Part shown: in pieces, positions 128 through 58,939 of the stretch | Layout: each line of letters opens with the position of its first letter | Position numbering within the stretch: position 1 is the stretch's first letter | DNA from: a virus | Strand: one strand, 5' to 3' | Virus record (IMG/VR): IMGVR_UViG_3300020020_000005 | Location: 1 to 59,887 of that record | Length of the DNA stretch: 59,887 nt | Program-made: the position numbers and the translations under genes | Notes under the pieces: generated by a model | Seen by the model: only the letters and a program-made list of their open reading frames with translations | What the model was told of the DNA's origin: nothing | The model's database searches: none

Positions 128-954
128 AAACAGAAGACAATGCAGAGTTAAAGGCCGGCACGATCAAGGCCATTACAGGCGACGATACGATCACAGCCCG
201 CGGTTCGCATGAGAACTATAAGACATTCAGAGCGACACACAAAATCACCATCGCAACGAATCACAAGCCAATCATTCCAGCCGACGATGACGCCATGTTT
301 CGTCGGCTGTTTTTATTTCCTGCGGCGGCTAAGTTCGGGCCACAAGAAGACGTGGACAACGGCGATGCCGACTATGCCGTGAACCAGTTACTGCTTGAGC
401 AATGTTCAACACCGCAGGGACGATCGGAAGTGCTGCTATGGGCAGTGCACGCTGTCGACAAGTACAAGAAGAACGGGCTCAAGTTACCGGCGACGATTAA
501 GCATCAGGTCGCGCTACACCGCAGTGAGATGGACATCATTGGCCAGTTTGTCCGCCATGCGACAGAGTACATTGGCAAGCCAAAGATCGAAGAGCTGAAG
601 AGCTTCGTTGGCACTGGCGGTAGCAAAGAGAAGCGTGAGACATGGAAATCGTGGACGATGATTCAGCGATGCGATATTGAATACGGCCTGTTCTACAATA
701 TGTATCAGCTATGGTGCAAACAGAACGGGATTGTCCGCGTAAAGAACCGCGTGCAATTCAACAAATATCTGAAGACAGCAGTGCGTTGGTGGACGGACGA
801 AGTCAATAAGGTCGAGCTAAAAATGGAGGCGATGGAGATGCAAGAGGGAGCGACCATGAAGACCTGGCGCTGGGTTAAGCTGTCGTATGAGGGAGAGCGA
901 CTGTTCCACGAGGCTAAGGGCATGCAAGACTTCTACGATCAACACCGTACTTAA
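1..954 (+). CDS. Primase-helicase (P4/D5-type SF3 helicase), C-terminal part
   Basis: This is the second half of a gene that starts at 58936 and runs through the contig join; the whole protein is 592 aa. The part here follows directly on the Walker A motif. It carries the SF3 features FAHGSETE (Walker B-like), a TNHKP segment (sensor 1-like) and FRRLFLFP (arginine finger region). This order is typical of phage and plasmid P4-family/D5 helicases that unwind DNA at the replication origin. The AEP-type primase gene lies immediately upstream and overlaps it. A large inverted repeat follows the stop codon and is a candidate binding site. Confidence 0.9.
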   Translation, partial: RTLGAYAGKLPQGFLENKKGGTDNNEQYALASLNGIRFAHGSETEDNAELKAGTIKAITGDDTITARGSHENYKTFRATHKITIATNHKPIIPADDDAMFRRLFLFPAAAKFGPQEDVDNGDADYAVNQLLLEQCSTPQGRSEVLLWAVHAVDKYKKNGLKLPATIKHQVALHRSEMDIIGQFVRHATEYIGKPKIEELKSFVGTGGSKEKRETWKSWTMIQRCDIEYGLFYNMYQLWCKQNGIVRVKNRVQFNKYLKTAVRWWTDEVNKVELKMEAMEMQEGATMKTWRWVKLSYEGERLFHEAKGMQDFYDQHRT

Positions 955-973
955 GTCCCCAGCGACAACCGGC

Positions 974-1083
974 AAAACCCCTAAACCCCCTAAATGGGAC
1001 GTTTCCCATAAAATCCCTTACGGGGAAAACACACATAGGGGGATTTATGGGAAACGGTGTTAAAAACGGGGTTTAGGGGTTTT
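974..1083. other. Nested inverted repeat; candidate replication origin or terminator
   Basis: The outer arms AAAACCCCTAAACCCC (974-989) and its exact complement (1068-1083) pair over 16 bases. Inside them GTTTCCCATAAA(A)TCCC (1001-1017) pairs with 1040-1055 with one bulged A. The centre is A-rich. The element fills most of the 151-base gap between the helicase stop and the next gene, next to the replication genes. It could be the origin bound by the helicase or a transcription barrier before the late genes. An octamer-like CGGTGTTA overlaps the inner right arm. Confidence 0.6.
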
Positions 1084-1105
1084 ACTTGTTTTCGAAGGAC
1101 AGTTT

Positions 1106-1441
1106 ATGACTCAAGCGAGTACAGTCGATTGCGGTGTTGATCATGTGAAAGCTCTACTATTGGAGCGTTTTCCGGGCATCTCTTTTGAGAAGGAAGAGAC
1201 GTCGAAGCTAAGCAGTCGCACGTTTTATGTGCAGCTCTGGTGTCGTCGCCCGGACATTTGCGTGCTGCTTCGAAACACAAAGGACATGACGCTATTCCAT
1301 GCTTATAACCGTAGCCAGATTCATCGTACTGATGCTGATGAGTTGATCGCGCTGCTTAGTGGAGGCAACAACAAAGAAAGAGGCGTGAGGTTATTGAATC
1401 GCGTGTGGTATGAACTCGGAGTGACAGCATTGCGGTGTTGA
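1106..1441 (+). CDS. Hypothetical protein, 111 aa
   Basis: I do not recognise this protein. It is soluble, with a mixed composition and an arginine- and histidine-rich middle (VQLWCRRPDICVLLRN). The start is supported by GAAGGAC eight bases upstream of ATG. It lies between the putative origin repeat and the late promoter, so it could be expressed with the primase-helicase genes. Two copies of the genome-wide octamer CGGTGTTG lie in it, one overlapping the stop codon. Confidence 0.6.
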   Translation: MTQASTVDCGVDHVKALLLERFPGISFEKEETSKLSSRTFYVQLWCRRPDICVLLRNTKDMTLFHAYNRSQIHRTDADELIALLSGGNNKERGVRLLNRVWYELGVTALRC

Positions 1442-1456
1442 TGTTGGAGCTCGCGC

Positions 1457-1485
1457 TTGGTGCCTGGCCGCTTTGGGCCTATACT
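1457..1485 (+). promoter_or_regulatory. Sigma70-like promoter for the late operon
   Basis: TTGGTG (1457-1462), a 17-base spacer and TATACT (1480-1485) lie about 40 bases upstream of the terminase small-subunit gene. This is the only gap before a long run of head genes on the + strand. Spacing and hexamers fit a sigma70 promoter. Transcription has not been shown. Confidence 0.55.
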
Positions 1486-1526
1486 TTTCGCGTTTGCTTC
1501 TTTCTTAGAATGGTTTTGAAATTCTG

Positions 1527-1961
1527 ATGACGGACGAAGTAGATAGACCCGAAGACAACGAGGATGAGGACCGTTCTCCTGGCTGGCACCTTCGCGGCCG
1601 CAAGATGCCTGGCTCTGGGCGACAGAAGGGACAGCTGAACAAAGTGACGAAAGAGTTCAAAGCGATCGTCCAGGACCTAATCGACGAGAACCAGGACAAC
1701 GTGAAGTTGTGGCTGGATCGCGTCGCCAATGGTGTGCCCGGCGAATACCAGACGAACGACGAAGGCTTGCGCGAGACGATTCGCTATCCTGTCGTCGCTG
1801 ATCCTGCGAAGGCTGTGGACCTCATCAGCAAGCTGGCCGAGTACGTGGCTCCGAAGCTCACGCGCACAGAAGTCACGGGACCTGGCGGACAGCCGCTAGC
1901 GCCTCCGGTGTTGACCGTCCACATCGAGGGCAAGCCTAGTGACGATGAATCCAAGTCCTGA
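1527..1961 (+). CDS. terS: Terminase small subunit
   Basis: Predicted to recognise phage DNA and load the packaging motor. The 144-aa protein has an acidic N-terminus, then a basic segment (KMPGSGRQKGQLNKVTKEFK) like the DNA-binding start of many small terminases, a helical middle and an acidic tail. It directly precedes and overlaps the terminase large subunit. The call rests on position, size and the GRQKG-type basic motif rather than on a complete domain match. ATG is the first in the frame after the promoter; no strong Shine-Dalgarno is visible. Confidence 0.7.
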   Translation: MTDEVDRPEDNEDEDRSPGWHLRGRKMPGSGRQKGQLNKVTKEFKAIVQDLIDENQDNVKLWLDRVANGVPGEYQTNDEGLRETIRYPVVADPAKAVDLISKLAEYVAPKLTRTEVTGPGGQPLAPPVLTVHIEGKPSDDESKS

Positions 1962-3800: not shown

Positions 3801-5435
3801 ATGGCTACACCATCAAGCATCACAAGCGACGTCTCGTTCAATCGTGTCCCACAACCCATTCGCGAACGCTGGTCCGTCGTGCGTGACGTCGTGTCCGGGG
3901 ACAATGCACTCCGGACGGACCTCTATCTTCCCATGCTCAACGCCACGGACACCAGCGTCGAGAACGTAGCGCGCAACAAGGCCTATCGCTCACGTGCAGT
4001 CTGGTACCCAGCCACGCAGTTCACACTCGAGGGCCTAGTCGGTCTGGCCTTTCACCGTGACCCTGTGACCGAGCTGCCCACTGAGCTCGAATACCTGCTC
4101 GAGGACTGCGATGGGCTGGGCGTGTCTCTGTATCAGCAGTCGCAGAGTGTCCTGCAGAACAACCTGGCTGTCGGCAGGCATGGCTTGTTCGTGGACTGGT
4201 CCGAAGCACTCGGGCACCCACTCATCAAGGCCTATCATGCCGAGGCCATCATCAACTGGCGCTACCAGATCGTAGATGGCAAAGCGTCCCTCGTGATGAT
4301 CGTCCTGGAAGAAGAAGCAGAGATAGAGGACGGTGATTGGGGCATCGTGCTCGTCAAGCAGTGGCGCGAGATACGCCTGAACGACGCAGGCAACGTGGAG
4401 GTACGCTTATGGCGCGAGGACACTGGAGTGACGAAGCACAAGCGCCTCGTGTCCATGGGCACAGTGACAAACGAAGCAGGGGACGAACTACTCATCGAGG
4501 CGGTAGAACTTCGCAGCCGCGGTGCGGTGTTGACGGAGATACCATTCACGTTCATTGGCTCGAACAACAATGATGCGAGCATCGACCCGGCACCGCTCTA
4601 TGGACTGGCGCAACTTAACCTTGCTCACTATCGGAATTCTGCTGACTATGAAGATAGTGTGTTCTTCTGCGGGCAAGTCCAGCCCTGGATTAGCGGACTC
4701 ACCGAGCAGTGGCGCGACTATATGCAGAATCCTTGGGTCATAGACTCGACGGGTGAGCGACGCTACACCGGACAGAAGATGTATATCGGTTCACGCAGCC
4801 CTTTGCTGTTGCCGCAAGGTGCGTCGTTCGGTATGGCTCAGGCCCAGCCTAACTCGCTCGCGAAGGAAGCCATGGAGCACAAGGAAGCGCAGATGGTGGC
4901 TGTCGGCGCGCGCATGATCGAGGCAACGAAGGTCAACAAGACAGCAACGGGCGAGAACAATGATCGTGAGGCCACGACGTCTGTCCTGTCGCTATGTGTC
5001 GTGAACGTATCCGAGGCGTACCAGCGGGCCATCGGCTTCTGCGCACGCTTCTTGGACATGAAAGAAGAGGACTGGGCAGATGCCTTTAAGATTCAGCAAG
5101 ACTTCGTCCAGCTTCAGGCGAACCCGCAGCTCATGGCAGAACTCACGAAGTCGTGGCAGAGCGGTCTTCTGGCGAAAAACGACGTTCGTGATTTCTTCCG
5201 CCGTCTTGGTCTTATTGCTACTGAGCGCAGTAATGACGATATAGAGAAGGATGTGGAAGCCGAAGAACCACTTGGCACGATGGGACTGCCACCGCCAGGC
5301 ACGTTGCCGGGTGTGCCAGGTGCTTCCCCCTTGGCCGCTGTTGCCGGACCGCCCCCGCAGCTGCCTGGCAAGCCTAAGCCCCCTGCCGGACCGCCCCTTC
5401 CCGTGGAGCGGCGGGCACGGGCACGGGCACGGTAA
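3801..5435 (+). CDS. Portal protein (DUF4055-like)
   Basis: Forms the dodecameric ring at the capsid vertex through which DNA enters and leaves. The 544-aa protein has the typical start of DUF4055 portals: a segment of repeated polar residues leading into YRSRAVWYPATQFTLEGLVG and GLAFHRDP near residue 85. The C-terminal about 55 residues are proline-rich and end in an RARARAR tail, probably disordered. It lies between terminase and the head morphogenesis protein, the usual order. Confidence 0.85.
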   Translation: MATPSSITSDVSFNRVPQPIRERWSVVRDVVSGDNALRTDLYLPMLNATDTSVENVARNKAYRSRAVWYPATQFTLEGLVGLAFHRDPVTELPTELEYLLEDCDGLGVSLYQQSQSVLQNNLAVGRHGLFVDWSEALGHPLIKAYHAEAIINWRYQIVDGKASLVMIVLEEEAEIEDGDWGIVLVKQWREIRLNDAGNVEVRLWREDTGVTKHKRLVSMGTVTNEAGDELLIEAVELRSRGAVLTEIPFTFIGSNNNDASIDPAPLYGLAQLNLAHYRNSADYEDSVFFCGQVQPWISGLTEQWRDYMQNPWVIDSTGERRYTGQKMYIGSRSPLLLPQGASFGMAQAQPNSLAKEAMEHKEAQMVAVGARMIEATKVNKTATGENNDREATTSVLSLCVVNVSEAYQRAIGFCARFLDMKEEDWADAFKIQQDFVQLQANPQLMAELTKSWQSGLLAKNDVRDFFRRLGLIATERSNDDIEKDVEAEEPLGTMGLPPPGTLPGVPGASPLAAVAGPPPQLPGKPKPPAGPPLPVERRARARAR

Positions 5436-5438: not shown

Positions 5439-6542
5439 ATGGCACGATCAGCGAACACGAAGTTGCGTGACGCCGAGATCGGGCACGCAGTGGACCTGCG
5501 CCTCTATTCGGACACAGTGGTTCGTCGCATCATCGGCATTCTCAATCGTGCAGACGCAGCACTGTTCTCTGAGCTTGTCCAGAAGCTCGAGCACATGACG
5601 CCAGAGCGGTTCACCATTAAACGACTCGAGGTAATGTTGGAAAGTGTCCGGGTACTCAATCACGATGCTTACTCTCATCTCGATAGCACACTACGAGATG
5701 AGATCAAGGGGCTCACAGCCCTGGAGCTACAGTTCCAGGAAGGGATGCTGGCGAAGAATACACCTCCGTCAATTGACATCGCACGCGTGGACATTAATCA
5801 GGTCTACGCTGGCGCTATGTCGCGTCCCTTCCAGGGCGGGCTTCTTAGCGAGTTTCTCAAAGACCAAGAAACTTCCAAAGCTCGCTTGATTCGGCGGACC
5901 ATTGCGGACGGGTACGTGCAGAACAGGACAACAGACCAGATCATTCGCGACCTGCGCGGGACAAGAGAGAACAAGTACCGTGACGGTATTCTCGAGGTCA
6001 CGCGTCGTGAGGCAGCGGCGGTTGTAAGGACGGCGCTGTCTCACACGGCGCAGTTCGCGAAGGATAGGGTCACAGAGGCCAATGAGGATATCATTGGCAA
6101 CCTGCAGTGGCTGTCGACCCTGGACAATCGGACTACGCCCGAATGCCAGGTCCGAGACGGCAAGCTCTACACCGTCGACCACAAGCCCGTCGACCATGAA
6201 TATCCATGGGGCGCGGGACCAGGCCGCTTGCACTGGCAGTGCCGCTCGACCTATGTGCAGTTGACGAAGTCGTGGAAGGAACTCGGTGTTGACGTGGAAG
6301 AGTTTGATGCTGGCGACCGGGCGAGCATGGATGGTAGTGTTCCCGGCAAGACTGACTATGAATCATGGTTGGCCGACCAATCGCCAGCCCGGCAGACGCA
6401 GGTGCTTGGCGCAACACGGGCGAAGCTTTTCAACGAAGGCGGTTTAACGTTCGAGGAGCTGCGCAACGCCCGCGGTGAGGACTTGACCTTGGATGAACTA
6501 CGATCGCGCTATGGTGAGGCGTTTAGGCGGTCTGGTGCATGA
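5439..6542 (+). CDS. Head morphogenesis / minor capsid protein (Mu gpF-like)
   Basis: A 367-aa protein with the conserved C-terminal SPP1 gp7/Mu F segment WLSTLDNRTTPECQVRDGK, followed by HWQCRS. This is characteristic of minor head proteins that sit inside the portal vertex and are ejected or help assembly. The N-terminal two thirds are helical. It starts four bases after the portal stop. The C-terminal SPARQTQVLG... region resembles the family's usual end. Confidence 0.88.
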   Translation: MARSANTKLRDAEIGHAVDLRLYSDTVVRRIIGILNRADAALFSELVQKLEHMTPERFTIKRLEVMLESVRVLNHDAYSHLDSTLRDEIKGLTALELQFQEGMLAKNTPPSIDIARVDINQVYAGAMSRPFQGGLLSEFLKDQETSKARLIRRTIADGYVQNRTTDQIIRDLRGTRENKYRDGILEVTRREAAAVVRTALSHTAQFAKDRVTEANEDIIGNLQWLSTLDNRTTPECQVRDGKLYTVDHKPVDHEYPWGAGPGRLHWQCRSTYVQLTKSWKELGVDVEEFDAGDRASMDGSVPGKTDYESWLADQSPARQTQVLGATRAKLFNEGGLTFEELRNARGEDLTLDELRSRYGEAFRRSGA

Positions 6543-7184: not shown

Positions 7185-7723
7185 TACAGGACTTTCGGAC
7201 GGTTGATGATGGTTTGCGCAACACCGTTGTACGCGGAGTGCTCTTTGACCGTGGCCTTGACGCGGATGGTGGCACCGACCTCGCCGAGCTCGGAGGTACC
7301 TTTGTAGATGAACTGGTTGCCGTTCTCATCGACGCAGGCGTGGAAGTAGGAGGTGCCGTACATGCCCTCATGTTCCATGACGCGCTTGATGGTGAGCGTG
7401 AACTCTTCGCGCTGGCCCACGTTGCCCATGTGACGACCGCTGGTGGCGGGTGCGTTCTTGGCCGCAGTGCGCTCAGCTGCGCGGGCTTTGGCCTTCTCGA
7501 CCATGCTACGGGCTGCTGCCATCTGGCCGATGGACAGGCCACCGCGGGAGCCGTAGGACTCGAGCAGTGACTTGGCGAACTCGGACCACGAGGCGGCGCT
7601 GTGGAGGAAGTCGATCACTTCCGAGGCGTCGGGGTTCGTGCGCTCGAACTTGGCGCGGGTGGCGCGGATGATCTTGTTGCGGACTGCGTTGTCGTAGGAG
7701 TATTCGTCGTGAACGTAGGACAT
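7184..7723 (-). CDS. Conserved phage protein with OB-fold-like C-terminus
   Basis: A 179-aa protein. The N-terminal half is helical. The C-terminal about 75 residues (FTLTIKRVMEHEGMYGTSYFHACVDENGNQFIYKG..., ending in GVAQTIINRP) alternate strands and glycine turns like an OB fold, as in phage proteins that may bind single-stranded DNA. ATG was chosen because ACAGAAAGCACCTC precedes it and a -10 box lies 35 bases upstream. An early DNA-metabolism role is an inference. Confidence 0.75.
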   Translation of the reverse strand: MSYVHDEYSYDNAVRNKIIRATRAKFERTNPDASEVIDFLHSAASWSEFAKSLLESYGSRGGLSIGQMAAARSMVEKAKARAAERTAAKNAPATSGRHMGNVGQREEFTLTIKRVMEHEGMYGTSYFHACVDENGNQFIYKGTSELGEVGATIRVKATVKEHSAYNGVAQTIINRPKVL

Positions 7724-7756
7724 GAGGTGCTTTCTGTTTGGGTTGCTGAAGAGTTG

Positions 7757-7778
7757 AGTATACACCAGATCAGGTGTA
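7757..7778 (-). promoter_or_regulatory. Class B promoter with near-palindromic operator
   Basis: On the minus strand, ATCTGGTGTATACT gives a TATACT -10 box 34 bases upstream of ATG. No convincing -35 exists. The plus strand at 7761-7778 is an almost perfect palindrome (TACACCAGATCAGGTGTA, two mismatched positions), a likely protein site. The same sequence recurs at 7998. Confidence 0.5.
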
Positions 7779-7964
7779 CTGAACGAGATTAAGAAGGTGA
7801 CGTGCTGCGCGGCACAGGGCGACGGCGTGGACCGTGTTCTTGTCGGCGAACAGGCGGGCGTCGCGAATGCGGCGGAGGGCGATTTGATAGTTGGCAGTGC
7901 GCTGTTGCTTGGGGACCGCGCGGGCGCGAGCTTCGAGTGCGCGGATGTCAGTGATGATGTTCAT
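7770..7964 (-). CDS. Small hypothetical protein, 64 aa
   Basis: Helical, arginine- and alanine-rich (MNIITDIRALEARARAVPKQ...). ACAGAAAGCAAGAA precedes ATG, matching the leader used by many early genes on this strand. It has its own -10 element at 7998. Function unknown. Confidence 0.65.
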   Translation of the reverse strand: MNIITDIRALEARARAVPKQQRTANYQIALRRIRDARLFADKNTVHAVALCRAARHLLNLVQYT

Positions 7965-7997
7965 TTCTTGCTTTCTGTTTGGGTCTGTCGAAGAGTC

Positions 7998-8014
7998 GAG
8001 TATACACCAGATTA
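7998..8014 (-). promoter_or_regulatory. Class B promoter
   Basis: TATACT preceded by ATCTGGTG, the same arrangement as the element at 7757 and related to those at 44284 and 47742. It lies about 35 bases upstream of the 64-aa gene and overlaps the C-terminal codons of the gene before it. Confidence 0.5.
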
Positions 8015-8287
8015 GGCTGCCGGGGCAACCGACTTGCCAAATTTGTCGAATTCCGAACCGTAGCTGCGTGACACCTTGCGGGACTCGAGGAACCTGGCGC
8101 CTGCCGAATGGGCATTATACCCTGCTTCTACTGCCGCGGCGACGAACTCAGCCTTTGTTACATCTTCGTTGATGGCTGCAACGTAACGCAGGATTGCCGC
8201 CTGGCTGGTGAGCTCGCCATCGTCTTCCATAGCGAAGGCGAAGTCGTCCGCCAGGTGGGCTGCGAGGGCTTGTGTACGAGTGATCAT
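8012..8287 (-). CDS. Hypothetical protein, 91 aa
   Basis: Helical acidic N-terminus (LAAHLADDFAFAMEDDGE), then an alanine-rich segment. I do not recognise it. The best start is the ATG at 8287, which lies only seven bases after a TATACT box, so its mRNA may be leaderless or nearly so. First gene of the minus-strand island. Confidence 0.65.
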   Translation of the reverse strand: MITRTQALAAHLADDFAFAMEDDGELTSQAAILRYVAAINEDVTKAEFVAAAVEAGYNAHSAGARFLESRKVSRSYGSEFDKFGKSVAPAA

Positions 8288-8293
8288 GACGCA

Positions 8294-8307
8294 AGTATAC
8301 CTGATCC
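8294..8307 (-). promoter_or_regulatory. Promoter for a possibly leaderless mRNA
   Basis: ATCAGGTATACTTG on the minus strand. The TATACT box ends seven bases before ATG, so transcription would start at or next to the start codon. No -35 is apparent. The upstream half resembles the class B elements. Confidence 0.4.
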
Positions 8308-8456
8308 GATTCACCTGCGTCTATGCTATTCCTCCTAATCCTGAAGGCTATTAACGAGCTCGTATGGATGTGGTAAGAAATAAGCCTGGAAATTCATCCC
8401 GGCTTGGCGTATGGTTGCTGTGGCCTGTAGTCCGTTAGCTCAACTAGGAAATTAAC

Positions 8457-8984
8457 ATGAAGACGAAGATTGCGGTTGCTTTAATCTCGGCAGTGATGGC
8501 AGTGTCGGCGCTTGCCGCAAGTGTCCACTTCAAACAGAACCGCAGTCCGACTCTCATCGACAACGGCTTGTCCATCACGGCAGCTGGGTCGCTGGCGGGG
8601 TTGGGTGAAGGTGATGTCGTGGTTACGCTGTCGGCGACCGGGACCATCACTGCAACATGCACGAACCCCAGCGGGCAGAATCAACCTCCCGGTCAAGTGC
8701 CGCAACCCGTCACGCTCTCCGGCTCGGTAGCCATCCCAGATGAACAATTTAAGAATGGCAACGTCGGCTTCAGCGTGACAACGACGCCGCCTAGCTCCAC
8801 TGTCCCAGGTGCGCCGGATTGTCCGAACGCGAATTGGACCGAAACCATCACGGACATCCAATTCACATCGGTGACGCTCACTGTGCAACAAGCCGGGCAG
8901 ACCGTTCTCACGACAACCTGCACCTCTGCACCATCGACGAATGGTCCTTTGGCGCCGAGCACCGTGAACTGCACACGTTCATGA
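8457..8984 (+). CDS. Secreted beta-rich protein with signal peptide
   Basis: The 175-aa product starts MKTKIAVALISAVMAVSALA, a clear Sec signal peptide with a cut expected after ALA. The rest is threonine/serine-rich beta structure with two cysteine pairs (ATCTNP, APDCPN, TTTCTS, VNCTRS), consistent with an exported disulphide-bonded domain. I recall similar exported proteins in bacterial genomes, but no function. It lies alone between the minus-strand island and the scaffold gene and looks like a cargo (moron) gene. TAGGAAATTAAC precedes ATG. Confidence 0.75.
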   Translation: MKTKIAVALISAVMAVSALAASVHFKQNRSPTLIDNGLSITAAGSLAGLGEGDVVVTLSATGTITATCTNPSGQNQPPGQVPQPVTLSGSVAIPDEQFKNGNVGFSVTTTPPSSTVPGAPDCPNANWTETITDIQFTSVTLTVQQAGQTVLTTTCTSAPSTNGPLAPSTVNCTRS

Positions 8985-8988
8985 TGTC

Positions 8989-9279
8989 ATGTGTGCTCTT
9001 GCCGTCACAAAGCCAAAGCCGCCTTCTCCGAAGCTGGCGGCTTTGCTTCGTGCCAGAGCGCATCCTCTCCAGCCAGGACAGTTGCGGTGTCACCGATGCG
9101 GTTCACAGACCTACGCACGCGTCGTGAACGGTGCTTTTCAAGGTAAGCGCGGGCCGATTGGTGGTTCTGTGATTTACTCGTGTATTTGCTACGACTGCTT
9201 GCTAGTCGGAATAACTGCCCCCATGTTTTGGGACGTACAATCGGTCCCATCGCCAGGTCCAACTCCCAAGGGGATTTGA
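8989..9279 (+). CDS. Putative zinc-ribbon protein, 96 aa
   Basis: Contains CHRCG near residue 34 and CICYDC about 35 residues later, a plausible four-cysteine zinc site. It fits exactly between the secreted protein and the scaffold gene, but no good ribosome site is seen and an antisense frame is also open. The call is tentative. Confidence 0.45.
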   Translation: MCALAVTKPKPPSPKLAALLRARAHPLQPGQLRCHRCGSQTYARVVNGAFQGKRGPIGGSVIYSCICYDCLLVGITAPMFWDVQSVPSPGPTPKGI

Positions 9280-9282
9280 TTC

Positions 9283-10089
9283 ATGTACTTGACACGCAAT
9301 GTCTTGATGAAGTATCGCTCACCCGATCCGGACCCGCCTGGCGGCGGTGGCGGCGCACCTCCTCCGCCTCCTCCCCCTCCTGCTCCTCCCCAGATTCCCG
9401 AGAACCTGAAGCCCCTCGTGCAAGGCATGATCGAGGCCGCGGTTAACGAGCAGGTCGCCGGACTGAAAGCCAAGAACGGTGAACTGATTGGGAAAGAGAA
9501 GGAACTCAAGGCCAACTTGGCTCAGTTCGAAGGCATCGACCCCGAAGCCGTGCGCAACATCCTCAAGAGGTTCGCGGACGACGAAGAGGCAACGCTCATC
9601 AAGCAGGGCAAGATTGACGAAGTGCTCAACAAGCGTACCGAACGCATGGCGGCGGATTGGGACAAGAAGCTCAAGGCTGAACAGACCCGTTCCGAGAAGC
9701 TGAAGGCGAAGGCGGACAAGCTCGCAGAGCGCGCAATGGCTGAGTCCATCATCAAGGCATCGCAGAAGGCAGGCGCACTGCCCGAAGCAACAGAAGATAT
9801 CGTGCTGCGCGCTAAGGGCGCCGGCTGGACCATCGACGACGATGGCAATGTGATCGCCATGAGTGGTGATACCGTTGTCTTCGGGAAAGATGGCAAGACG
9901 CCCCTCACACCCGAGGAGTGGGCGGCTTCTCTGCGCGAGAACGCGCCCCACCTCTGGCCAAGGGCACAGGGTTCCGGTGCAATGGGCACCAACGGAGCTG
10001 CCAAGGGCGGACCGGATTATTCCAAACTTCCGCCCGAGGCAAGAATCACCGCTCATCGCGCTCAGCAGGCGCTAGGTGCTTCACGCTAA
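9283..10089 (+). CDS. Capsid scaffold protein
   Basis: Predicted internal scaffold that guides prohead assembly. The 268-aa protein has a glycine/proline-rich N-terminus, a long charged coiled-coil centre (residues about 60-150) and a C-terminal region resembling the capsid-binding end of scaffolds (LPPEARITAHRAQQALGASR). It directly precedes the major capsid gene, the standard arrangement. An in-frame ATG eight codons in (MKYRSPDPD) is an alternative start. Confidence 0.82.
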   Translation: MYLTRNVLMKYRSPDPDPPGGGGGAPPPPPPPPAPPQIPENLKPLVQGMIEAAVNEQVAGLKAKNGELIGKEKELKANLAQFEGIDPEAVRNILKRFADDEEATLIKQGKIDEVLNKRTERMAADWDKKLKAEQTRSEKLKAKADKLAERAMAESIIKASQKAGALPEATEDIVLRAKGAGWTIDDDGNVIAMSGDTVVFGKDGKTPLTPEEWAASLRENAPHLWPRAQGSGAMGTNGAAKGGPDYSKLPPEARITAHRAQQALGASR

Positions 10090-10104
10090 AGGTGACATCC
10101 TTTA
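10087..10104 (+). promoter_or_regulatory. Stem-loop before the capsid ribosome site
   Basis: TAAAGG (10087-10092) and CCTTTA (10099-10104) form a six-pair hairpin that starts at the scaffold stop codon and ends five bases before the AAGGTGA ribosome site of the capsid gene. It could tune capsid translation or mark an RNA processing site. Confidence 0.35.
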
Positions 10105-10114
10105 AGGTGAAACA

Positions 10115-11041
10115 ATGGCACTGACCCTACCCGAAGCCGCCAAGCTGAACTCTGGCGACATCGTGCGTTCGGCTGTCATCGAAATGTTTGCGCAGGAATC
10201 GGACATCCTCCAGGTCCTGCCGTTCGAAGACATCGCTGGCAACGCGTTGAAGTACAACCGTGAAGGCTCCCTACCGGGTATCAGCTTCCGCGGCGTGAAC
10301 GAAGCATTTCCGGAATCGTCCGGCGTGCTCAACCCGCAAACCGAGGCGCTCGTCATCGCAGGTGGCGACCTGGACGTGGACCGCTTCATTATCCAGACTC
10401 AAGGCCAGGGCGTGCGTGCAACACACGAACGCATGAAGGTCAAGTCGCTCGCGGCAGGTTGGACGCAGAAGTTCATCAAGGGCGATTCGTCCACGAACCC
10501 TCGCGAGTTCGACGGTCTGCAGAAGCGCCTTGTCAATCAGCAGGTCTACTCGGCCGGTGCTGGCTCTGGCGGTTCGCCGTTATCGCTGGGCATCATCGAC
10601 GACGCGACCGACAGCGTGGACAACCCGACGCACTACCTCATGTCCAAGGGCATGCGGCGCAAGTTCACCGCGGCAGCGCGCACGACAGCCGTTGCTGGTT
10701 TCGTGACGTACACCGCGGACGCATTCGGCCGACGTATCTCGAACTACAACGACCTGCCCATGCTGGTCGCATACGGCGCCAACGGCGGCGATGATATCCT
10801 TCCCTATGACGAAGCAGCGGCAAGCGGCCCTGCTACGGCCACGTCCCTCTACATCCTGAGCATCGGCGCGGGTCGCATCCAGGGCATTCAGAACGGCCCA
10901 ATGGACGTGCGTGATCTGGGCGAGCTACAAGCCGCGCCGGTGTTCCGCACTCGGGTCGAATGGTACAACGGCATCGTGATCGAACACGGACGTGCCGCTG
11001 CTCGCATCCGGCATATCAGCAACGCTGCTATCGTTGCGTAA
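10115..11041 (+). CDS. Major capsid protein (HK97-fold expected)
   Basis: The 308-aa protein begins MALTLPEAAKLNSGD and has the expected order: an N-terminal arm, then a region around FRGVNEAFPESSG and TQGQGVRATHERMKVKSLAAGW, and a C-terminal strand-rich part ending in VEWYNGIVIEHGRAAARI. These segments are typical of phage major capsid proteins of this size. It follows the scaffold and precedes a decoration-like protein. Translation starts after AAGGTGAAACA. Confidence 0.88.
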   Translation: MALTLPEAAKLNSGDIVRSAVIEMFAQESDILQVLPFEDIAGNALKYNREGSLPGISFRGVNEAFPESSGVLNPQTEALVIAGGDLDVDRFIIQTQGQGVRATHERMKVKSLAAGWTQKFIKGDSSTNPREFDGLQKRLVNQQVYSAGAGSGGSPLSLGIIDDATDSVDNPTHYLMSKGMRRKFTAAARTTAVAGFVTYTADAFGRRISNYNDLPMLVAYGANGGDDILPYDEAAASGPATATSLYILSIGAGRIQGIQNGPMDVRDLGELQAAPVFRTRVEWYNGIVIEHGRAAARIRHISNAAIVA

Positions 11042-11052
11042 GGAGAACAACT

Positions 11053-11430
11053 ATGCCTTCTCGCACCTATGACAATTTGATGCTCCTGAAAGATGCTGGC
11101 GCGACTGCTGTCGACGCGGCTGCTCAGGTAGCCGGCGCTGCTCGCGTCATCGACGTGGGGAACGCCCACATGGACGGTGTTGCCGTCATCGACACCAGCG
11201 CGGTCGACACCGCTGGCGGGTCTTATGTTGTTCGCGTCCAGGGTTCGGCGACACTGAACTTTGCCTCGCCGGTGGAACTGGCGGCGCGTGCAATCACGTC
11301 CACAGGACGCATTGAGATTCCGTTCAACAACGAGATCAACGGCGTCTACTACCCGTACATTCGGGCTTACAACGACGTCACCGGCGCGACGCCGTCCATC
11401 AACAGCACGATCTTCATCGGCAAGCCGTAA
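11053..11430 (+). CDS. Capsid-associated (decoration-like) protein
   Basis: The 125-aa protein MPSRTYDNLMLLKDAG... is beta-rich. I recognise the MPSRTYDNLMLLKDAG start as a conserved family encoded immediately after major capsid genes, probably on the head surface. AGGAGAACAACT precedes ATG. The exact position in the virion is inferred. Confidence 0.65.
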   Translation: MPSRTYDNLMLLKDAGATAVDAAAQVAGAARVIDVGNAHMDGVAVIDTSAVDTAGGSYVVRVQGSATLNFASPVELAARAITSTGRIEIPFNNEINGVYYPYIRAYNDVTGATPSINSTIFIGKP

Positions 11431-43927: not shown

Positions 43928-43955
43928 GGTGACTGCCTTTCTGTGGTGAGCTTCA

Positions 43956-43983: not shown

Positions 43984-43991
43984 ATGAATTT

Positions 43992-47975: not shown

Positions 47976-48212
47976 TTAAGCGGTGAAGAAATCGGCGCCG
48001 GTGAACTCAATGGCAACACCGGAGGCGTGGCAGTACGATTCCCAGCAAGCGGCGGTGATTGCCTGTGCGCGCAGTGCGTCGAAGCGGCTGGCCATGTAGG
48101 CCGAACGGAAGTTGCCCTCCAGCTTCTTGCCGCGGGCAGCGTGGATGGTGAGGGAGGAGCCAGCCTTGGCGAGCTTGGACACGAGGGCGAGGACGTTGGA
48201 GGAGGTGTTCAT
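47976..48212 (-). CDS. Hypothetical protein, 78 aa
   Basis: Helical, basic (VLALVSKLAKAGSSLTIHAARGKKLEGNFRSAYMASRFD). ACAGAAAGTTAGAA precedes ATG; class B-type promoter 50 bases upstream. Unknown. Confidence 0.65.
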   Translation of the reverse strand: MNTSSNVLALVSKLAKAGSSLTIHAARGKKLEGNFRSAYMASRFDALRAQAITAACWESYCHASGVAIEFTGADFFTA

Positions 48213-49722: not shown

Positions 49723-49976
49723 GTGCTGATTATAGCATCATTCTTGGCTGGCAAACAATCTTCACAGAGGTACTTGCGCTCTGCCTCACTGCGCGGGTCA
49801 TCGCGGTGTGGCCCGCAGTTCATGGTACAGACCTTGGAGGCCGGGTCGAACTGTTTCAACACCGCGGGTTCGACCCGCTGCCACACGATGGCAGCGGGCT
49901 TCGGCTCAGGTGGCCTAGAGGGCTTGTCGCGTGACGGCTTCGGCTTGTCACGCGGTGTTGGCCGATCGGGGTTCAT
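49719..49976 (-). CDS. Hypothetical protein with cysteine/histidine cluster, 85 aa
   Basis: Starts with a basic, proline-rich disordered stretch (RPTPRDKPKPSRDKPSRPPEPK) and ends with VCTMNCGPH and YLCEDCLP, a possible zinc site. Start fixed by the ATGA overlap with the gene before it. Confidence 0.65.
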   Translation of the reverse strand: MNPDRPTPRDKPKPSRDKPSRPPEPKPAAIVWQRVEPAVLKQFDPASKVCTMNCGPHRDDPRSEAERKYLCEDCLPAKNDAIIST

Positions 49977-51208: not shown

Positions 51209-51520
51209 CTATACCTTGAAACCTTTTGGTTCTGGAAACCGCCACCGCGCCAGGTATTCCTCGGCTTGCCTATTAAAGGTGGCAACCGCCTTGGTAAACA
51301 CGATGACACCGCGACGCTCGAAGTAGCTCGATTGCATGGCACCCACGACCATGTCACTCGCTGGCGGTGCCCCGTAGTGCCAGGCGGCATTGGAGGTCGC
51401 CTCGGTGTTGGCGGTGACGATGTAGCAGTCACCTATGCGGTGTAGATCACCGCGCACGTACTTGCCCTCGAGGGGGCTATGAAAATAACAGCCGGTCAGA
51501 ATGCAATCGGGGAGATTCAT
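51209..51520 (-). CDS. Hypothetical protein, 103 aa
   Basis: The start MNLPDCILTGCYFHSPLEGK is chosen because its ATG overlaps the stop of a 36-aa membrane peptide (ATGA). Longer starts in this frame would run through that gene. Beta-rich (RGDLHRIGDCYIVTANTEA); unknown. Confidence 0.65.
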   Translation of the reverse strand: MNLPDCILTGCYFHSPLEGKYVRGDLHRIGDCYIVTANTEATSNAAWHYGAPPASDMVVGAMQSSYFERRGVIVFTKAVATFNRQAEEYLARWRFPEPKGFKV

Positions 51521-51976: not shown

Positions 51977-52882
51977 CTAGAAGGGGATATCTTCATCAGG
52001 GCCGCTAGCCCCTTCAGGTGCCTTCGAGAAGTCCGGCTTCACGGCACCAGTCTTCACGCTCTTGGCGAACTCTTGTGCCTCAATGAACACCGGGTCTTGT
52101 GGACCCTTCAGATAGCCTTCGTGTGTGAAGGCCCAGCCCATCCAGCTGCCCTTCTCGTTGCTCTCGGGCACTGTGGTGACGCGCCATTTGCTGGCAAACA
52201 TCGGAGGCGTATAGGGACCATTCGGCCCGCGGAGCTTGAGCAGGTTCTGCTGCATCAGCCACTGTCGCGCCTTCTTGATCTGCGTCGACGTCATTGTGAT
52301 GAGTGCCGGCGACACCGTGCCTTCGTCCTCGTCGTAAACCATCACAGAGAATGTGCGTGTGTCGTTGAGCTGATTGCCGCTCTCGATGATGTCGCGATTC
52401 TTGTCGTCACGCATACTCTTTTGGAGCAGTGTCAGACCTTCTTCGACTTCGTGCTGGCCCTGGAAGCCGCCGCCGTTCTCGCGTAGACGCCACTCGATGA
52501 AGTAGCGGTCGTAAGCACAGGGCACAACAATGATGCGCCTGGCCACCGGGTCCATGAGCTCGCGTGTGACACTATTGAAGAGCATGCCCTCTGCTGCGCC
52601 TTCGATGTACTCGCCCTCGCTGCGCTTTACCTGCGGGCTGTTCGATTGCAGAATGACAAGGAACGGGATTGCCAGGTCGTCCTTCGTGAGGCCGGCGAAC
52701 CCTTCGCCAGCGAAGCCGCTGAAGTCGTTATCTGCGGCTGTCGTCACGGCACCATTCGGCTTGACGGCGATGTTCGCCTCATCACCGTGCCCGTGGTGCG
52801 GCTGGTCGAACGCCTTGTCGGCGGGACTCTTGTCTTGCGGTGTTGCCGGTGGAATGGTGGAGGTTTTAACTTCGTCGGTCAT
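51977..52882 (-). CDS. SSB-like protein with acidic tip
   Basis: 301 aa. Ends in DEDIPF, matching the acidic tip that bacterial SSB uses to dock partners. The central part (DDLAIPFLVILQSNSPQVKRSEGEYIEGAAEGMLFNSVT) belongs to a family of phage proteins found with replication genes. The start at 52882 overlaps the gene upstream (ATGA). I infer single-stranded DNA binding; the OB fold is not obvious by eye. Confidence 0.65.
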   Translation of the reverse strand: MTDEVKTSTIPPATPQDKSPADKAFDQPHHGHGDEANIAVKPNGAVTTAADNDFSGFAGEGFAGLTKDDLAIPFLVILQSNSPQVKRSEGEYIEGAAEGMLFNSVTRELMDPVARRIIVVPCAYDRYFIEWRLRENGGGFQGQHEVEEGLTLLQKSMRDDKNRDIIESGNQLNDTRTFSVMVYDEDEGTVSPALITMTSTQIKKARQWLMQQNLLKLRGPNGPYTPPMFASKWRVTTVPESNEKGSWMGWAFTHEGYLKGPQDPVFIEAQEFAKSVKTGAVKPDFSKAPEGASGPDEDIPF

Positions 52883-53439
52883 CTTGATTTCCTTGCTTTC
52901 TCTTTGAGCTCTGCCTTTTTGAACTGAAACACGCTGATAGAAGGTGGCAGAGCGGTACCTTCTTCCAGCAATTCTTTGACGAGGGACTTGAGAGTAGAAG
53001 CGTGTATCGATTCGATACTCTCTGGGATTACGCCGAACTCCGTTATCGCGCTGCGCAGCCAAGTGCGTTGCTCCTCTGTTAATGTTCGAACGTCGACGTT
53101 GAATGCTTCTTTGATGACGCCGCCGTGCCCGTGCAGCCGCAGCCACTCGTGAGCGAAGGGACGGTTTTCGATGCTGATGTTGGCCTTGACGTCTGGTCGT
53201 ACTGTGAGCACGGTGCCATCGGATAGGGTGTACGTGGCAACACCGGCGAGCTCCATGGCCTCGGGTAGGACGCCGAGCTGGAACTGGTTGAGGTCCGCGG
53301 TGAGGCGGTCGAGCTCTGCTTGTGCGTCGGCGACAGCGTTGATCTTCTCGCGAAGCGTCTGCGCCATCGTCACCAGCATCTGCAAGTGGTCCTCACGCGG
53401 AGGGCCAGTGTCTACGCCGCTGAAGTCGAAGTCGCTCAT
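52879..53439 (-). CDS. Conserved phage replication-associated protein
   Basis: 186 aa. An N-terminal coiled coil (MAQTLREKINAVADAQAELDRLTADLNQFQLGVLPEAMELAG), a short beta region (YTLSDGTVLTVRPDVKANI) and NRPFAHEWLRLHGHGGVIK form a recurrent family encoded next to SSB-like proteins. A role with the SSB-like protein is likely but not established. Confidence 0.7.
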   Translation of the reverse strand: MSDFDFSGVDTGPPREDHLQMLVTMAQTLREKINAVADAQAELDRLTADLNQFQLGVLPEAMELAGVATYTLSDGTVLTVRPDVKANISIENRPFAHEWLRLHGHGGVIKEAFNVDVRTLTEEQRTWLRSAITEFGVIPESIESIHASTLKSLVKELLEEGTALPPSISVFQFKKAELKEKARKSR

Positions 53440-54060: not shown

Positions 54061-54236
54061 CGCGGCAACATCCCTGCTCGGTTGTTCCACTCGCGCCGGC
54101 CGCAGGTGCTGCAGATGCGGTAGTTGCTCTCATTGCTCTCCCACTGCCAGGAGTGGGGACGGCTGATCTGATCCGGTGGGTCGGAGTCAACGGTGCAGTT
54201 ATTCTCGGTGTTGTCGGCGCGTAGGTCTTCGTTCAT
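54057..54236 (-). CDS. Short protein with CxxC motif, 59 aa
   Basis: MNEDLRADNTENNCTV... includes ESNYRICSTCGRREW. Both its ends overlap neighbouring genes (TAATG and ATGA), which supports it as a true gene. Possibly a half-site zinc knuckle. Confidence 0.65.
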   Translation of the reverse strand: MNEDLRADNTENNCTVDSDPPDQISRPHSWQWESNESNYRICSTCGRREWNNRAGMLPR

Positions 54237-55195: not shown

Positions 55196-56767
55196 CTATT
55201 GCCATACATGAGCAATCGCTGCACGCAATACTACTTCACTGACGTCTTCAGCATTGCGCAAACAGCGCACGACATCTTCATCGATTGTGTGCTGCGCTGT
55301 GAGGTCGTACACCTGCACAGTTTGCGCACCATCAGTACGTGCCAGCCGGCTGATAGCCTGGAGACGGTCGAGGTATGGGTAATCGTTGGAGTAGAAAACC
55401 ATGTAGGAGGCAACGCCTTGAAGACCGTCTAACCCTGTGCCTCCTGCCTTCTGCTGACCGACGAAGAAACGGCACTTCGGATCATCGATGAAGCGTCGCT
55501 TGCTGGCATCCTTTTCTTTGGCGGTCATGCGCCCGTGATATTGAGTCACAGCCTCAGCACCGCAGACGTGTGTTAGCGTGCTAACGACCATGTCGATCTC
55601 TGCCGAGAACCTACACCAGATGACGAGCTTCTCGTCTTCGAGCTCGAGAGCGAGCTGTAGGAGTTCCTGCACCTTGGGATTCTCGCCCTCCGGTGTGACA
55701 GGCTTGGCTTGTGGGTCGTCGTCGCTGGGCGCAAAGCCCCCTACAACTTGCGATAGGCGGATGGCCAGGGCCAGTGCCCCCTCAGTGGTCAGTTGTCCGC
55801 CAGGGGCCTGTGCCACGCCCCATTTGATGAGTTCGTCGTAGAGCGTCTGCTGGGCTGGATGAAGTGAGACGTAGCGATGGTCTTGGTTGACGATCGGCTC
55901 GGTACCGTTGACATCCGCCAGGGTAAGGAAGACCGAATGCTTCTCGATGCGCCGACGCAGGTCGCCAAGGTTGCGGTAGATAGGCTTGTCTTCGTCATCC
56001 TTGGCAATGATTGCCGGGTAGATGGGGTTGCCATTCTTGTCCCGTCGAAGCCGGCCTTTCGAGTCTAGGTTCTTGACGATGTGCTGCACAAGAGGATTGT
56101 GCGGGCCTAGCATGAGGGCATAGGTACTCTTGAAAGACGCTAAGCTGGCGAATCCCAGCGTAGCGTCGCCTAGCAACTCGAACTGCCCCCATGCAGAGAA
56201 CGGGTTCTGGCGAATGAGTGTGCCTGTGCCGATGCGCTTCACACGCGCGTAGCGCATCACCGGCTTGACAGCCTTATACACGTCGCTGCGCGGATTGCTG
56301 GTGCGGTGGCTCTCGTCGTCGATGCACATATAGCGCTTCACGGCTTGCAGCATCTTGATGAGCTTCTTACCGCGGGGCGTTTGTAGTGCATCGAAGCTCA
56401 TGGTCAACACGAACATGGTGTCGTTCGGCGGTGTTGCCAGAACTGCACGCTCGAGTTTCTCGAACGCGAGCTTACGCATCTTCGAATGGTAGTTCCAGCA
56501 GACCGTGGGAACAGCGCAATGCTTCGGCACGCCTTCCTCGATCCACTGGCGGTCAACACCGTCGGGAGCGATCACGACCAATGCGTCGATGCGGTGTGCT
56601 AGGAAATTCATAGCAGCCTGGTCCAGGCCGATCTTAGTCTTACCCGTACCTGGACGGCACAGGTAAGCCAAAGATGGGCGGTCCCAGGAGGACTCGATGA
56701 CCTCGCCCTGTTTGCCACGAGGTGCGGTCTTATACTTAAACGCGGGCGGCGGTGGCGTCAGCAGCAT
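55196..56767 (-). CDS. SNF2-type DEAD/DEAH helicase
   Basis: A 523-aa SF2 helicase of the SNF2 class, probably for replication or recombination. Motif I is RPGTGKTKI near residue 35-43, motif II IDDESHR near 150, motif III GTGTLIRQNP, motif V QQKAGGTGLDGLQ and motif VI QAISRLARTDGAQTVQVY. The start at 56767 (MLLTPPPPAFKYK) overlaps the gene before it by 32 bases; an upstream ATG gives a longer but less typical N-terminus. Confidence 0.9.
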   Translation of the reverse strand: MLLTPPPPAFKYKTAPRGKQGEVIESSWDRPSLAYLCRPGTGKTKIGLDQAAMNFLAHRIDALVVIAPDGVDRQWIEEGVPKHCAVPTVCWNYHSKMRKLAFEKLERAVLATPPNDTMFVLTMSFDALQTPRGKKLIKMLQAVKRYMCIDDESHRTSNPRSDVYKAVKPVMRYARVKRIGTGTLIRQNPFSAWGQFELLGDATLGFASLASFKSTYALMLGPHNPLVQHIVKNLDSKGRLRRDKNGNPIYPAIIAKDDEDKPIYRNLGDLRRRIEKHSVFLTLADVNGTEPIVNQDHRYVSLHPAQQTLYDELIKWGVAQAPGGQLTTEGALALAIRLSQVVGGFAPSDDDPQAKPVTPEGENPKVQELLQLALELEDEKLVIWCRFSAEIDMVVSTLTHVCGAEAVTQYHGRMTAKEKDASKRRFIDDPKCRFFVGQQKAGGTGLDGLQGVASYMVFYSNDYPYLDRLQAISRLARTDGAQTVQVYDLTAQHTIDEDVVRCLRNAEDVSEVVLRAAIAHVWQ

Positions 56768-57299
56768 GATGAGTCTTTGGGTGATAAGCGGCTCGTCGCT
56801 GGATGGCCGTGAGCCAGCCGACATTGCCTGGCTCGTAGTTCCTGAGCTTGTTGAGGCGACAGAACATGGTGCCTTCTGGACGTGGGCCTACGTCTTCCAG
56901 CCAGTGCTCGAACGACTGTAGCCAGCGTTCACACACGCGAACGCCGAGTGCGCCTGCGTCTGGGTAGCCCTTGTGATAACTCTTGGTTGTTTTGAGAATC
57001 ATGTTCTTCCAAATCATGTAGAGCGGGTGATCGCTTTTCTTCTTGCCGTCGACTCTGATCTTATTGAGGCAACCACACGATGTCACCCTTCCGAGGCGTA
57101 GATACCTGCCTTGAACGGGCTTGACAACACCGCAGTCGCACTGCACGACGAACGCACGGTTGCTGCCGACATTGTCTGAACGCTTGACGACGACGAGCGC
57201 GCCGTAGCGGGTACCTGGCGGGAGGTCGATGGTGCCGAACGCGCTTGTGTTGGCGCTATGCCAGGAATTAGGCCATGTGCTGGTAATTGGGTTCTTCAT
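56736..57299 (-). CDS. HNH/AP2-like homing-type DNA-binding protein
   Basis: 187 aa. GTRYGALVVVKR, a zinc-like CDCG and SCGCL pair, PLYMIWKNM and VCERWLQSFEHWLEDVGPRPEGTMFCRLNKLRNYEPGNVGWLT follow the pattern of phage HNH-associated proteins that copy themselves between genomes. The nuclease histidines are not clear, so it may be an inactive DNA-binding relative. ACAGAAAGCAAGAA precedes ATG. Confidence 0.75.
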   Translation of the reverse strand: MKNPITSTWPNSWHSANTSAFGTIDLPPGTRYGALVVVKRSDNVGSNRAFVVQCDCGVVKPVQGRYLRLGRVTSCGCLNKIRVDGKKKSDHPLYMIWKNMILKTTKSYHKGYPDAGALGVRVCERWLQSFEHWLEDVGPRPEGTMFCRLNKLRNYEPGNVGWLTAIQRRAAYHPKTHHAADATAARV

Positions 57300-57577: not shown

Positions 57578-57578
57578 T

Positions 57579-57818
57579 TTAGTTTCCGATCCGCTTGGTA
57601 AGTTCTTTCGTGAGTAGTGCCTCGAATTCTTTTGGGTCGAATTCTTTTATGCCGCGGTCGTGTAAGTCTCGATGAAGACGTGCTGCTGCTTTGTAGCCCA
57701 TAGCCTCCGTCTTTTCCTGGTCGCGTCGTGTCAGCCTGGCGAAGTTTATTCCCTCTATTGTTCTTGCCACCTCGCGATCGAGCCAGGTTGAAAATTCTGT
57801 GCTTACTGTGAGTGCCAT
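57579..57818 (-). CDS. Hypothetical protein, 79 aa
   Basis: First gene of the leftward early arm, beginning MALTVSTEFSTWLDREVARTIEGINFARL; helical and basic. AGAAAGGCAGCCAAG precedes ATG at 57818. A strong promoter lies 32 bases upstream. Unknown. Confidence 0.65.
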   Translation of the reverse strand: MALTVSTEFSTWLDREVARTIEGINFARLTRRDQEKTEAMGYKAAARLHRDLHDRGIKEFDPKEFEALLTKELTKRIGN

Positions 57819-57849
57819 CTTGGCTGCCTTTCTGGGTTGGGATGTGGCG

Positions 57850-57877
57850 ACTATACAGGGGAAAAGCGAGCTGTCAA
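57850..57877 (-). promoter_or_regulatory. Leftward early promoter (sigma70 consensus)
   Basis: TTGACA, 16-base spacer and TATAGT on the minus strand. A perfect palindrome TCAACTGTTGA (57874-57884) overlaps the -35 and may be an operator. Divergent from the rightward promoter 21 bases away. Confidence 0.75.
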
Positions 57878-57897
57878 CTGTTGAGTGTAGTCGGATT

Positions 57898-57925
57898 TTG
57901 ACACCCACAAAACCGGGTGTAAAAT
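57898..57925 (+). promoter_or_regulatory. Rightward replication promoter (sigma70 consensus)
   Basis: TTGACA, 16-base spacer and TAAAAT, 48 bases upstream of the primase gene. ACACCC (57901-57906) and GGGTGT (57915-57920) form an inverted repeat between -35 and -10, a plausible operator site. Confidence 0.78.
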
Positions 57926-57973
57926 GTACGGCCCGACCTACACAGAACCCTACCCAGAAAGGTAAGAAAGAAT

Positions 57974-58939
57974 ATGCCTGCACTAGAGGGCGTGACGAAC
58001 AGCATTGTGCTGTCGGAACTCTTCAAAGGCCTTGGCACCGATGAGCGAGCTATCCTCTGCTCGGTGCGAGGCAATCCAAGCGAGGCCGATCCAACAGCCT
58101 GGGTCGGTACACCGTGGGGCGGTGGGGCTTGCCCCCTACACCACGACCGCAACAACTACGTTGCCATCAGCACCTTCCGCGAGGAAGATGGTCGATTCAA
58201 ACGCCGCAAGGCACAGTTTGCAAAGACGTGGTGCATCATGATCGACGACATAGGCACGAAGCTCCCACTCAATGTGATACCCGAAGAGCTTGTGCCTACA
58301 CTGGTCGTTGAGTCCTCGCCAGGTAACTTCCAAGCGAGCTTCTTCCTACAGCAGCCCGAGTCCAATGCAGAGCGAGTCACAGACGCAATACGACAGATCA
58401 TTGCAAAGCTCACAGGAGGCGGTGCGGACCCTGGCATGGCTGGCGTTACGCGTGTGCTGCGCTTGCCTGACGGTGTTAATGGTAAACCTACTAGCATGAT
58501 CGACGGCCAGCCCTGGCGCTGTAAGGTCTGGGTCTGGCGGCCGAATATACGGACGTCGTGGAGCGAGCTGCGACATGCCTTTGGCCTTGTCGAAAGATTC
58601 AGAAACTTCGTTGAGCCGAACGATGGCGTAACGCTCGAGCGCAAGCGCTGCTTCGATTTGGTTCGATACGCACTCAAGCGGCTGGGTCGCATCAAGCATG
58701 CGACTGGCAGCGGCTGGATGGACATTACGTGTCCATGGATCGAGAGTCACACCGCACGTAGCAACACCGGCACGGCAGTGGCCCCTCCCATGAAAGCGAA
58801 TGGCTATATGGGTGGCTTCAAGTGTCATCACGGACACTGTGAGGCTAAGAATTGGGGCGACCTCGAGACATGGGTGGCCGAGGAAGTGATTAAGCAGGGC
58901 ACGCGGCGTCGCGGACCCTTCTACGGAGAGAACGCGTGA
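57974..58939 (+). CDS. RepB-family (AEP-type) DNA primase
   Basis: 321 aa. NNYVAISTFR, KTWCIMIDDIGTK, TLVVESSPGNFQASFFL and GVTRVLRLPDGVNGK follow the RepB/AEP primase pattern; the acidic pair in MIDDIG is the likely metal site. A small zinc motif KCHHGHCEAKNWGDLETWV closes the protein. AAAGGTAAGAAAGA precedes ATG. GTG of the helicase overlaps its stop. Confidence 0.82.
   Translation: MPALEGVTNSIVLSELFKGLGTDERAILCSVRGNPSEADPTAWVGTPWGGGACPLHHDRNNYVAISTFREEDGRFKRRKAQFAKTWCIMIDDIGTKLPLNVIPEELVPTLVVESSPGNFQASFFLQQPESNAERVTDAIRQIIAKLTGGGADPGMAGVTRVLRLPDGVNGKPTSMIDGQPWRCKVWVWRPNIRTSWSELRHAFGLVERFRNFVEPNDGVTLERKRCFDLVRYALKRLGRIKHATGSGWMDITCPWIESHTARSNTGTAVAPPMKANGYMGGFKCHHGHCEAKNWGDLETWVAEEVIKQGTRRRGPFYGENA

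Follow-up and report, generated by a model that had tools for sequence, protein, structure and literature searches.

A selected asymmetric octamer scattered through the genes of a soil phage, possibly a Chi-like site

The octamer CGGTGTTG recurs throughout the DNA of a bacterial virus, termed here the soil phage, whose IMG/VR record (IMGVR_UViG_3300020020_000005) was analysed over its whole length of 59,887 bases, referred to below as the window. The plus strand carries a structural module for a siphovirus-like head and tail (terminase, portal, scaffold, capsid, tape measure), and the minus strand carries genes for DNA polymerase A, a sliding clamp, DpdA, FolE, QueE, QueD, QueC and helicases; an AEP-type primase or primase-helicase is also encoded (all assigned by PHROG/Pfam). 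We counted 57 exact copies of the octamer between positions 407 and 58769, 33 on the plus strand (CGGTGTTG) and 24 on the minus strand (CAACACCG), which corresponds to 0.95 copies per kb. Nearly all sites lie inside coding sequence, and no association with promoters or intergenic regions was seen. The original prediction had given at least 56 copies (32 and 24), a longest gap at 7219-11175 and one site across a stop codon (1433-1440); the recount adds one copy on the plus strand and returns the same gap and the same stop codon overlap. The sites of CGGTGTTG are:

407-414, minus, exact match, present in G011 too
940-947, minus, exact match, G011 too
1132-1139, plus, exact match, G011 too
1433-1440, plus, overlaps the TGA stop of the open reading frame (ORF) 1106-1441
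1906-1913, plus, kept in 12/12 relatives aligning here
4525-4532, plus, exact match
6284-6291, plus, exact match
7219-7226, minus, left edge of the longest gap
11175-11182, plus, right edge of the longest gap
11568-11575, minus, exact match
13036-13043, minus, exact match
13444-13451, plus, kept in 7/10 aligned relatives
13905-13912, plus, exact match
16032-16039, plus, exact match
17223-17230, plus, exact match
17807-17814, minus, exact match
18594-18601, plus, exact match
19968-19975, plus, exact match
22006-22013, plus, exact match
22734-22741, minus, exact match
23429-23436, minus, exact match
24566-24573, plus, exact match
26169-26176, plus, exact match
26580-26587, plus, exact match
27143-27150, plus, exact match
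27891-27898, minus, exact match
29829-29836, plus, exact match
30656-30663, plus, exact match
31367-31374, plus, exact match
31616-31623, minus, exact match
32641-32648, minus, exact match
32992-32999, plus, kept in 6/8 aligned relatives
33982-33989, plus, kept in 5/7 aligned relatives
35372-35379, minus, exact match
36920-36927, minus, within the DNA polymerase gene, kept in 6/7 aligned relatives
38360-38367, plus, within the clamp gene, kept in G004
38567-38574, minus, exact match
39490-39497, plus, exact match
40905-40912, minus, exact match
42035-42042, minus, exact match
42356-42363, plus, exact match
43103-43110, minus, exact match
43295-43302, plus, exact match
44225-44232, plus, exact match
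45064-45071, minus, exact match
47683-47690, plus, exact match
48014-48021, minus, exact match
49857-49864, minus, exact match
49953-49960, plus, exact match
51403-51410, plus, exact match
52838-52845, plus, exact match
53238-53245, minus, kept in 4/6 aligned relatives
54206-54213, plus, exact match
56429-56436, plus, exact match
56554-56561, minus, exact match
57125-57132, minus, exact match
58762-58769, minus, kept in 8/10 aligned relatives

Dinucleotide shuffles of the window contained a mean of 2.49 copies of CGGTGTTG (largest 7), and the third-order Markov expectation was 5.35. When all octamers were counted against this Markov expectation, as had been suggested, CGGTGTTG ranked first (z = 22). 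Synonymous-codon shuffling yielded 6.31 ± 2.21 copies with an automatic gene set (maximum 14, n = 300) and 9.81 ± 2.34 copies with a strand-curated gene set (maximum 18, n = 500), from which spurious antisense ORFs, recognised by stops in relatives, had been removed; the count and saturation tests hold on this curated set. CGGTGTTG was the top octamer under both the Markov and the codon-aware nulls. The original prediction had hinged on a codon-aware null giving fewer than 50 copies, and the maximum in 800 shuffles was 18.

The word is short, exact and asymmetric, as is the class of Chi sites. Of the 67 copies of its core CGGTGTT, 10 lack the final G (about nine of roughly 65 had been claimed), and one-mismatch variants of CGGTGTTG are scarce, with 0-18 copies each, the commonest being T to C (18) and T to A (12) at position 7. 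Across the genus, CGGTG and CGGTGT are mildly enriched (1.5-2.6 fold), and the stepwise addition of T and then G raises the enrichment to about 9-fold. A slight preference for A/C and then C after the site was considered as a possible signal and rejected, because 22-27 sites share the codon phase xxC GGT GTT Gxx; apart from this codon context the flanks are uninformative, as had been stated before. A full-text search of an open-access library returned no biological paper naming CGGTGTTG.

To express how far the word has been filled in, we used its saturation, i.e., the share of protein-permitted positions, where the octamer can be written without changing the protein, that carry it. In the window, 53 of 130 such positions are filled (41%, curated gene set), whereas 60 permuted octamers fill 3.5% of theirs in the median and 12.5% at most. 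Sense and antisense positions are filled alike (36/84 and 20/55, respectively), and no strand switch along the genome was found after correction for coding capacity (P = 0.19, 0.87 and 0.60 in three genomes). Therefore, the word functions at the DNA rather than the RNA level. Within sites, silent third codon positions are more conserved than those of the same codons elsewhere, with z-values of 5.9 (G004), 5.5 (G008), 5.1 (G002), 4.4 (G011) and 4.0 (G005). The spacing is also more even than that of random draws from the possible positions in the window (P = 0.002) and in G004 (P = 0.03), but not in G005, which suggests diminishing returns of close neighbours. We conclude that CGGTGTTG is under strong selection as a double-stranded DNA word and is filled in mainly via synonymous positions.

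We identified 23 contigs having 87-91% of the terminase sequence in common; some of them are near-identical, and the independent ones among them are congeners at roughly 73-82% DNA identity. As the original prediction had proposed to check, the octamer was counted in these relatives, and it is common to the congeneric phages, with a saturation of 40% in the window, 38% in G004, 37% in G008, 34% in G005, 33% in G006, 26% in G003 and 18% in both G001 and G002. The deficit of G002 lies mainly in the structural module, where 1 of 37 possible positions is filled between 30 and 48 kb. This module (about 30-48 kb; L108-L110), and likewise contigs G012 and G015, contain almost no CGGTGTTG, and the rest of G002 is enriched, which suggests that the module is a mosaic import from a motif-free phage. 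Relatives under about 66% terminase identity were without CGGTGTTG, and a near-DNA search of phage records gave no match. The nearest isolated relatives by polymerase (about 48% identity) are Microcystis phage Me-ZS1, Variovorax phage VPv64 and a Stenotrophomonas phage; CGGTGTTG occurs once in VPv64 and five times in the Stenotrophomonas phage.

Other lineages carry other words. G022 (88 kb, 57% terminase identity; L317-L321) has its own asymmetric octamer, TTGCGACA, with 53 copies vs. 7.6 expected, on both strands and at a saturation of 51/155 (33%). Top scores in a scan of 79 viral loci had a median of 5.2, and the window scored 19.6. Scores above 11 were reached by just two loci, of which the first is a local tandem repeat and the second, L035, is itself part of G022. 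A weaker word, TGTGGNCA, is enriched 5-fold on both strands of L157 and L161 (30 and 35 copies, 6-7 expected); these two phages, isolated on Variovorax and Stenotrophomonas, respectively, have 94% identity.

Several further repeated words were observed. The 9-mer AACAGAAAG, in many cases with CA or G after it, has 8-15 copies per genome in the window and in relatives such as L108-L110, far more than chance would give, and may be a ribosome-binding or start-associated element. TAACGGTGC and TGCTATAAT are repeated in G001, G003 and G009 (L105-L107, L111-L113, L126), do not appear in the window's top list and are probably phage-specific promoters. In G001 and G002 (L105-L110), a second enriched word, CCTGGG (GCCTGGG, GCCCAGG), is in 2-4 fold excess over codon shuffles, and TGTGGTCA is found nine times in 12 kb of L407.

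Two further features of the minus strand provide context:

38093-44005, minus strand, cassette of clamp, DpdA, FolE, QueE, QueD, QueC and gene 43280 (PHROG matches), not needed for the motif
51977-53146, minus strand, Pam3 gp34-like protein (Pfam PF23977), C-terminus ..DIPF

In the set of congeners with a contig spanning this locus, only the window and G004 have the cassette. The cassette-bearing genomes (window 37866-44005, G004, the Stenotrophomonas phage L161 and VPv64, in which the cassette was deduced from 94% identity to L161) show little avoidance of 6-base palindromes, with a strong deficit in 3-7 of 31-47. Cassette-free congeners strongly avoid 9-27 of 22-47, many of them at zero copies (e.g., CGCGCG in G001, 0 vs. 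44 expected). The tolerance of palindromes with the cassette fits a protection of 7-deazaguanine DNA against restriction. The tail of the gp34-like protein is acidic and, in alignment, ends in ..DIPF as the tails of bacterial single-strand binding proteins (SSBs) do. On this basis the protein is a probable phage SSB, and its family may be one of phage SSBs. For the DUF932 and gp34-like proteins, AlphaFold gave models of insufficient quality (pLDDT 39 and 35, respectively), and PDB sequence searches gave no match.

We considered several explanations other than a Chi-like function. The view that CGGTGTTG has no function and reflects codon usage, composition or the avoidance of other words could draw on the mild genus-wide enrichment of CGGTG and CGGTGT and on the many avoided palindromes, but it has a negligible probability: the codon-aware null, the rarity of one-mismatch words and the excess conservation of silent positions speak against it, and the null and the conservation test refute it. 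A lagging-strand priming site recognised by primase, one per Okazaki fragment, would agree with the even spacing near 1 kb and with the AEP-type primase-helicase. We regard it as scarcely probable, as the missing strand switch counts against this option of the original prediction, the identity of primase and helicase does not track motif strength and known primase sites comprise 3-5 nt. The recognition site of a DNA-modifying or defence system, such as 7-deazaguanine insertion by DpdA, a host methyltransferase or a BREX-like system, for which many sites would be advantageous, appears very unlikely as well. While the window holds a full preQ0 and DpdA cassette, and the cassette bearers, the window (G000) and G004, reach the highest saturation, G001, G002, G003, G005 and G008 cover the cassette place without the cassette and are still enriched (saturation up to 37%). 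Therefore, DpdA does not create the pattern, contrary to one suggestion of the original prediction. Moreover, the related VPv64 and Stenotrophomonas phages lack the motif, the latter in spite of its cassette, and restriction-type sites are normally avoided, like the palindromes in these genomes.

A phage-encoded DNA-binding protein (a packaging, nucleoid-organising, replication or segregation factor) whose specificity differs by lineage is a possible reader of the octamer, though on the whole an unlikely one. It would account for a motif that is a property of the phage genus, for the other octamer in another lineage and for the even spacing. Short contigs of G022's nearest relatives are not enriched in TTGCGACA, and the two 94% identical phages from different isolation hosts both carry TGTGGNCA, which also points to the phage. 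However, we saw no gene that varies along with the motif, because genus-conserved genes are equally similar in the motif-poor G001/G002 and in motif-rich congeners, and the location of nearly all sites within genes argues against such a factor. We are also not aware of any phage protein that recognises one exact, asymmetric octamer dispersed over coding DNA as seen here, which weakens the proposal further. Rather doubtful, too, is the idea that the octamers are genome-wide marks for an undescribed phage or host system (self/non-self recognition, packaging or DNA-end protection), with the lineage-specific words CGGTGTTG, TTGCGACA (G022) and TGTGGNCA (VPv64 group), rather than Chi of a RecBCD/AddAB enzyme.

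With middling confidence, we propose that CGGTGTTG is a Chi-like octamer for an end-processing helicase-nuclease (RecBCD or AddAB type) of the putative host; among the options of the original prediction, the Chi-like host site fits best, given the pattern of E. coli Chi in P1. From the pattern we infer a reader protein, its identity as a host nuclease and a protective role. The host enzyme would enter a free end of phage DNA, for example that of a linear genome on entry, of a broken replication fork or of a concatemer after cutting, would halt degradation at the next correctly oriented CGGTGTTG and would load RecA. As a result, the phage DNA would be protected, and recombination-dependent replication and packaging would be supported. 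The word would be kept because the phage has no recognisable recombinase; RecT, Red-beta, Erf, Sak and UvsX had no match among the window proteins scanned. Chi is host-dependent, and the different octamer of G022 is in line with this.

Under the identical codon-aware scan, E. coli Chi, GCTGGTGG, is the top octamer of P1 (50 copies vs. 13.3 expected) at a saturation of 44/124 (35%), and this test, applied to 50 kb of E. coli K-12, gave an observed/expected ratio (O/E) of 2.8 and a saturation of 25%. In published work, Chi is in excess in lambdoid phages that lack recombinases, with a median O/E of 3.12, and the effect is largest in P1- and T5-like phages (PMC3784561, Bobay et al. 2013). The earlier statement that no known class of phage element fits is thus contradicted by published Chi enrichment in recombinase-less phages (PMC3784561), and P1 behaves alike. 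Like Chi in P1, CGGTGTTG is exact, asymmetric, G/T-rich, the top octamer and present on both strands inside genes, with about one third or more of the synonymous opportunities filled. The excess over codon and composition nulls (57 vs. 6-10 copies) also agrees with Chi, with the dependence on host recombination being assumed. In Pseudomonas syringae Lz4W, the biochemically demonstrated Chi is another octamer, GCTGGCGC (PMC5959072), which shows that the RecBCD octamer varies by host.

Several observations weigh against the Chi-like reading. CGGTGTTG differs from the octamer of P1, and its density is roughly double that of Chi in P1 and some fivefold that in Rec-minus lambdoids; it is evenly spaced, whereas Chi in P1 has a large gap. 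In 444 bacterial genomes from two phyla (299 Pseudomonadota and 145 Verrucomicrobiota), its density never exceeded about 190 per Mb, and codon shuffling of 18 of the highest-density genomes (18-100 kb sampled each) gave O/E values of 0-2.5 and a saturation of at most 12%, no excess comparable to that of Chi in E. coli. Unrelated phages of a shared host should carry CGGTGTTG as well, but among the matches listed in an IMG/VR pair-pattern scan no unrelated phage shared it, and none of the nine IMG/VR records tested by codon shuffle was strongly enriched. A host-specific Chi does not simply predict that two phages with different isolation hosts have TGTGGNCA in common. Finally, a divergent phage recombinase, e.g., the DUF932 protein, is possible, and RecBCD inhibitors, which phages relying on Chi should lack, are difficult to recognise.

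The candidate hosts G403, G417, G040, G088, G295, G382, G410 and G434, among others, were rejected since their excess was too small by codon shuffle, and scans of genome contigs with capsid and terminase revealed no close prophage or host. In G417 (Verrucomicrobiota; L167-L171), CTGACTCC and overlapping words were about 15-20 fold over the third-order Markov expectation (31 vs. 1.5 in 100 kb), probably as a dispersed repeat.

We know of Chi sites established by experiment in only a handful of bacteria. In case CGGTGTTG is Chi-like, the Chi octamer of an uncultured host would be predictable from a single phage genome by codon-aware counting, which would offer a new clue linking phages to hosts, and a phage would be seen to devote about 40% of its synonymous opportunities to a single word. 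Otherwise, a new genome-wide recognition system would exist in virulent phages.

Two other known systems are comparable. The stoperators of mycobacteriophage L5 and other cluster A phages are repressor sites of about 13 bp that lie mostly between genes and are oriented with transcription. They resemble the present sites as asymmetric sequences repeated across a phage genome, but CGGTGTTG has 8 bp, is more numerous and lies in coding sequence without orientation preference. An identity with stoperators was rejected, as the sites are neither intergenic nor oriented with transcription, sense and antisense being equal. The DNA uptake sequences of Neisseria and Pasteurellaceae are a property of transformable host chromosomes; CGGTGTTG is likewise a short exact word found about once per kb on both strands, although it is a different word and belongs to a virulent phage rather than to a host chromosome.

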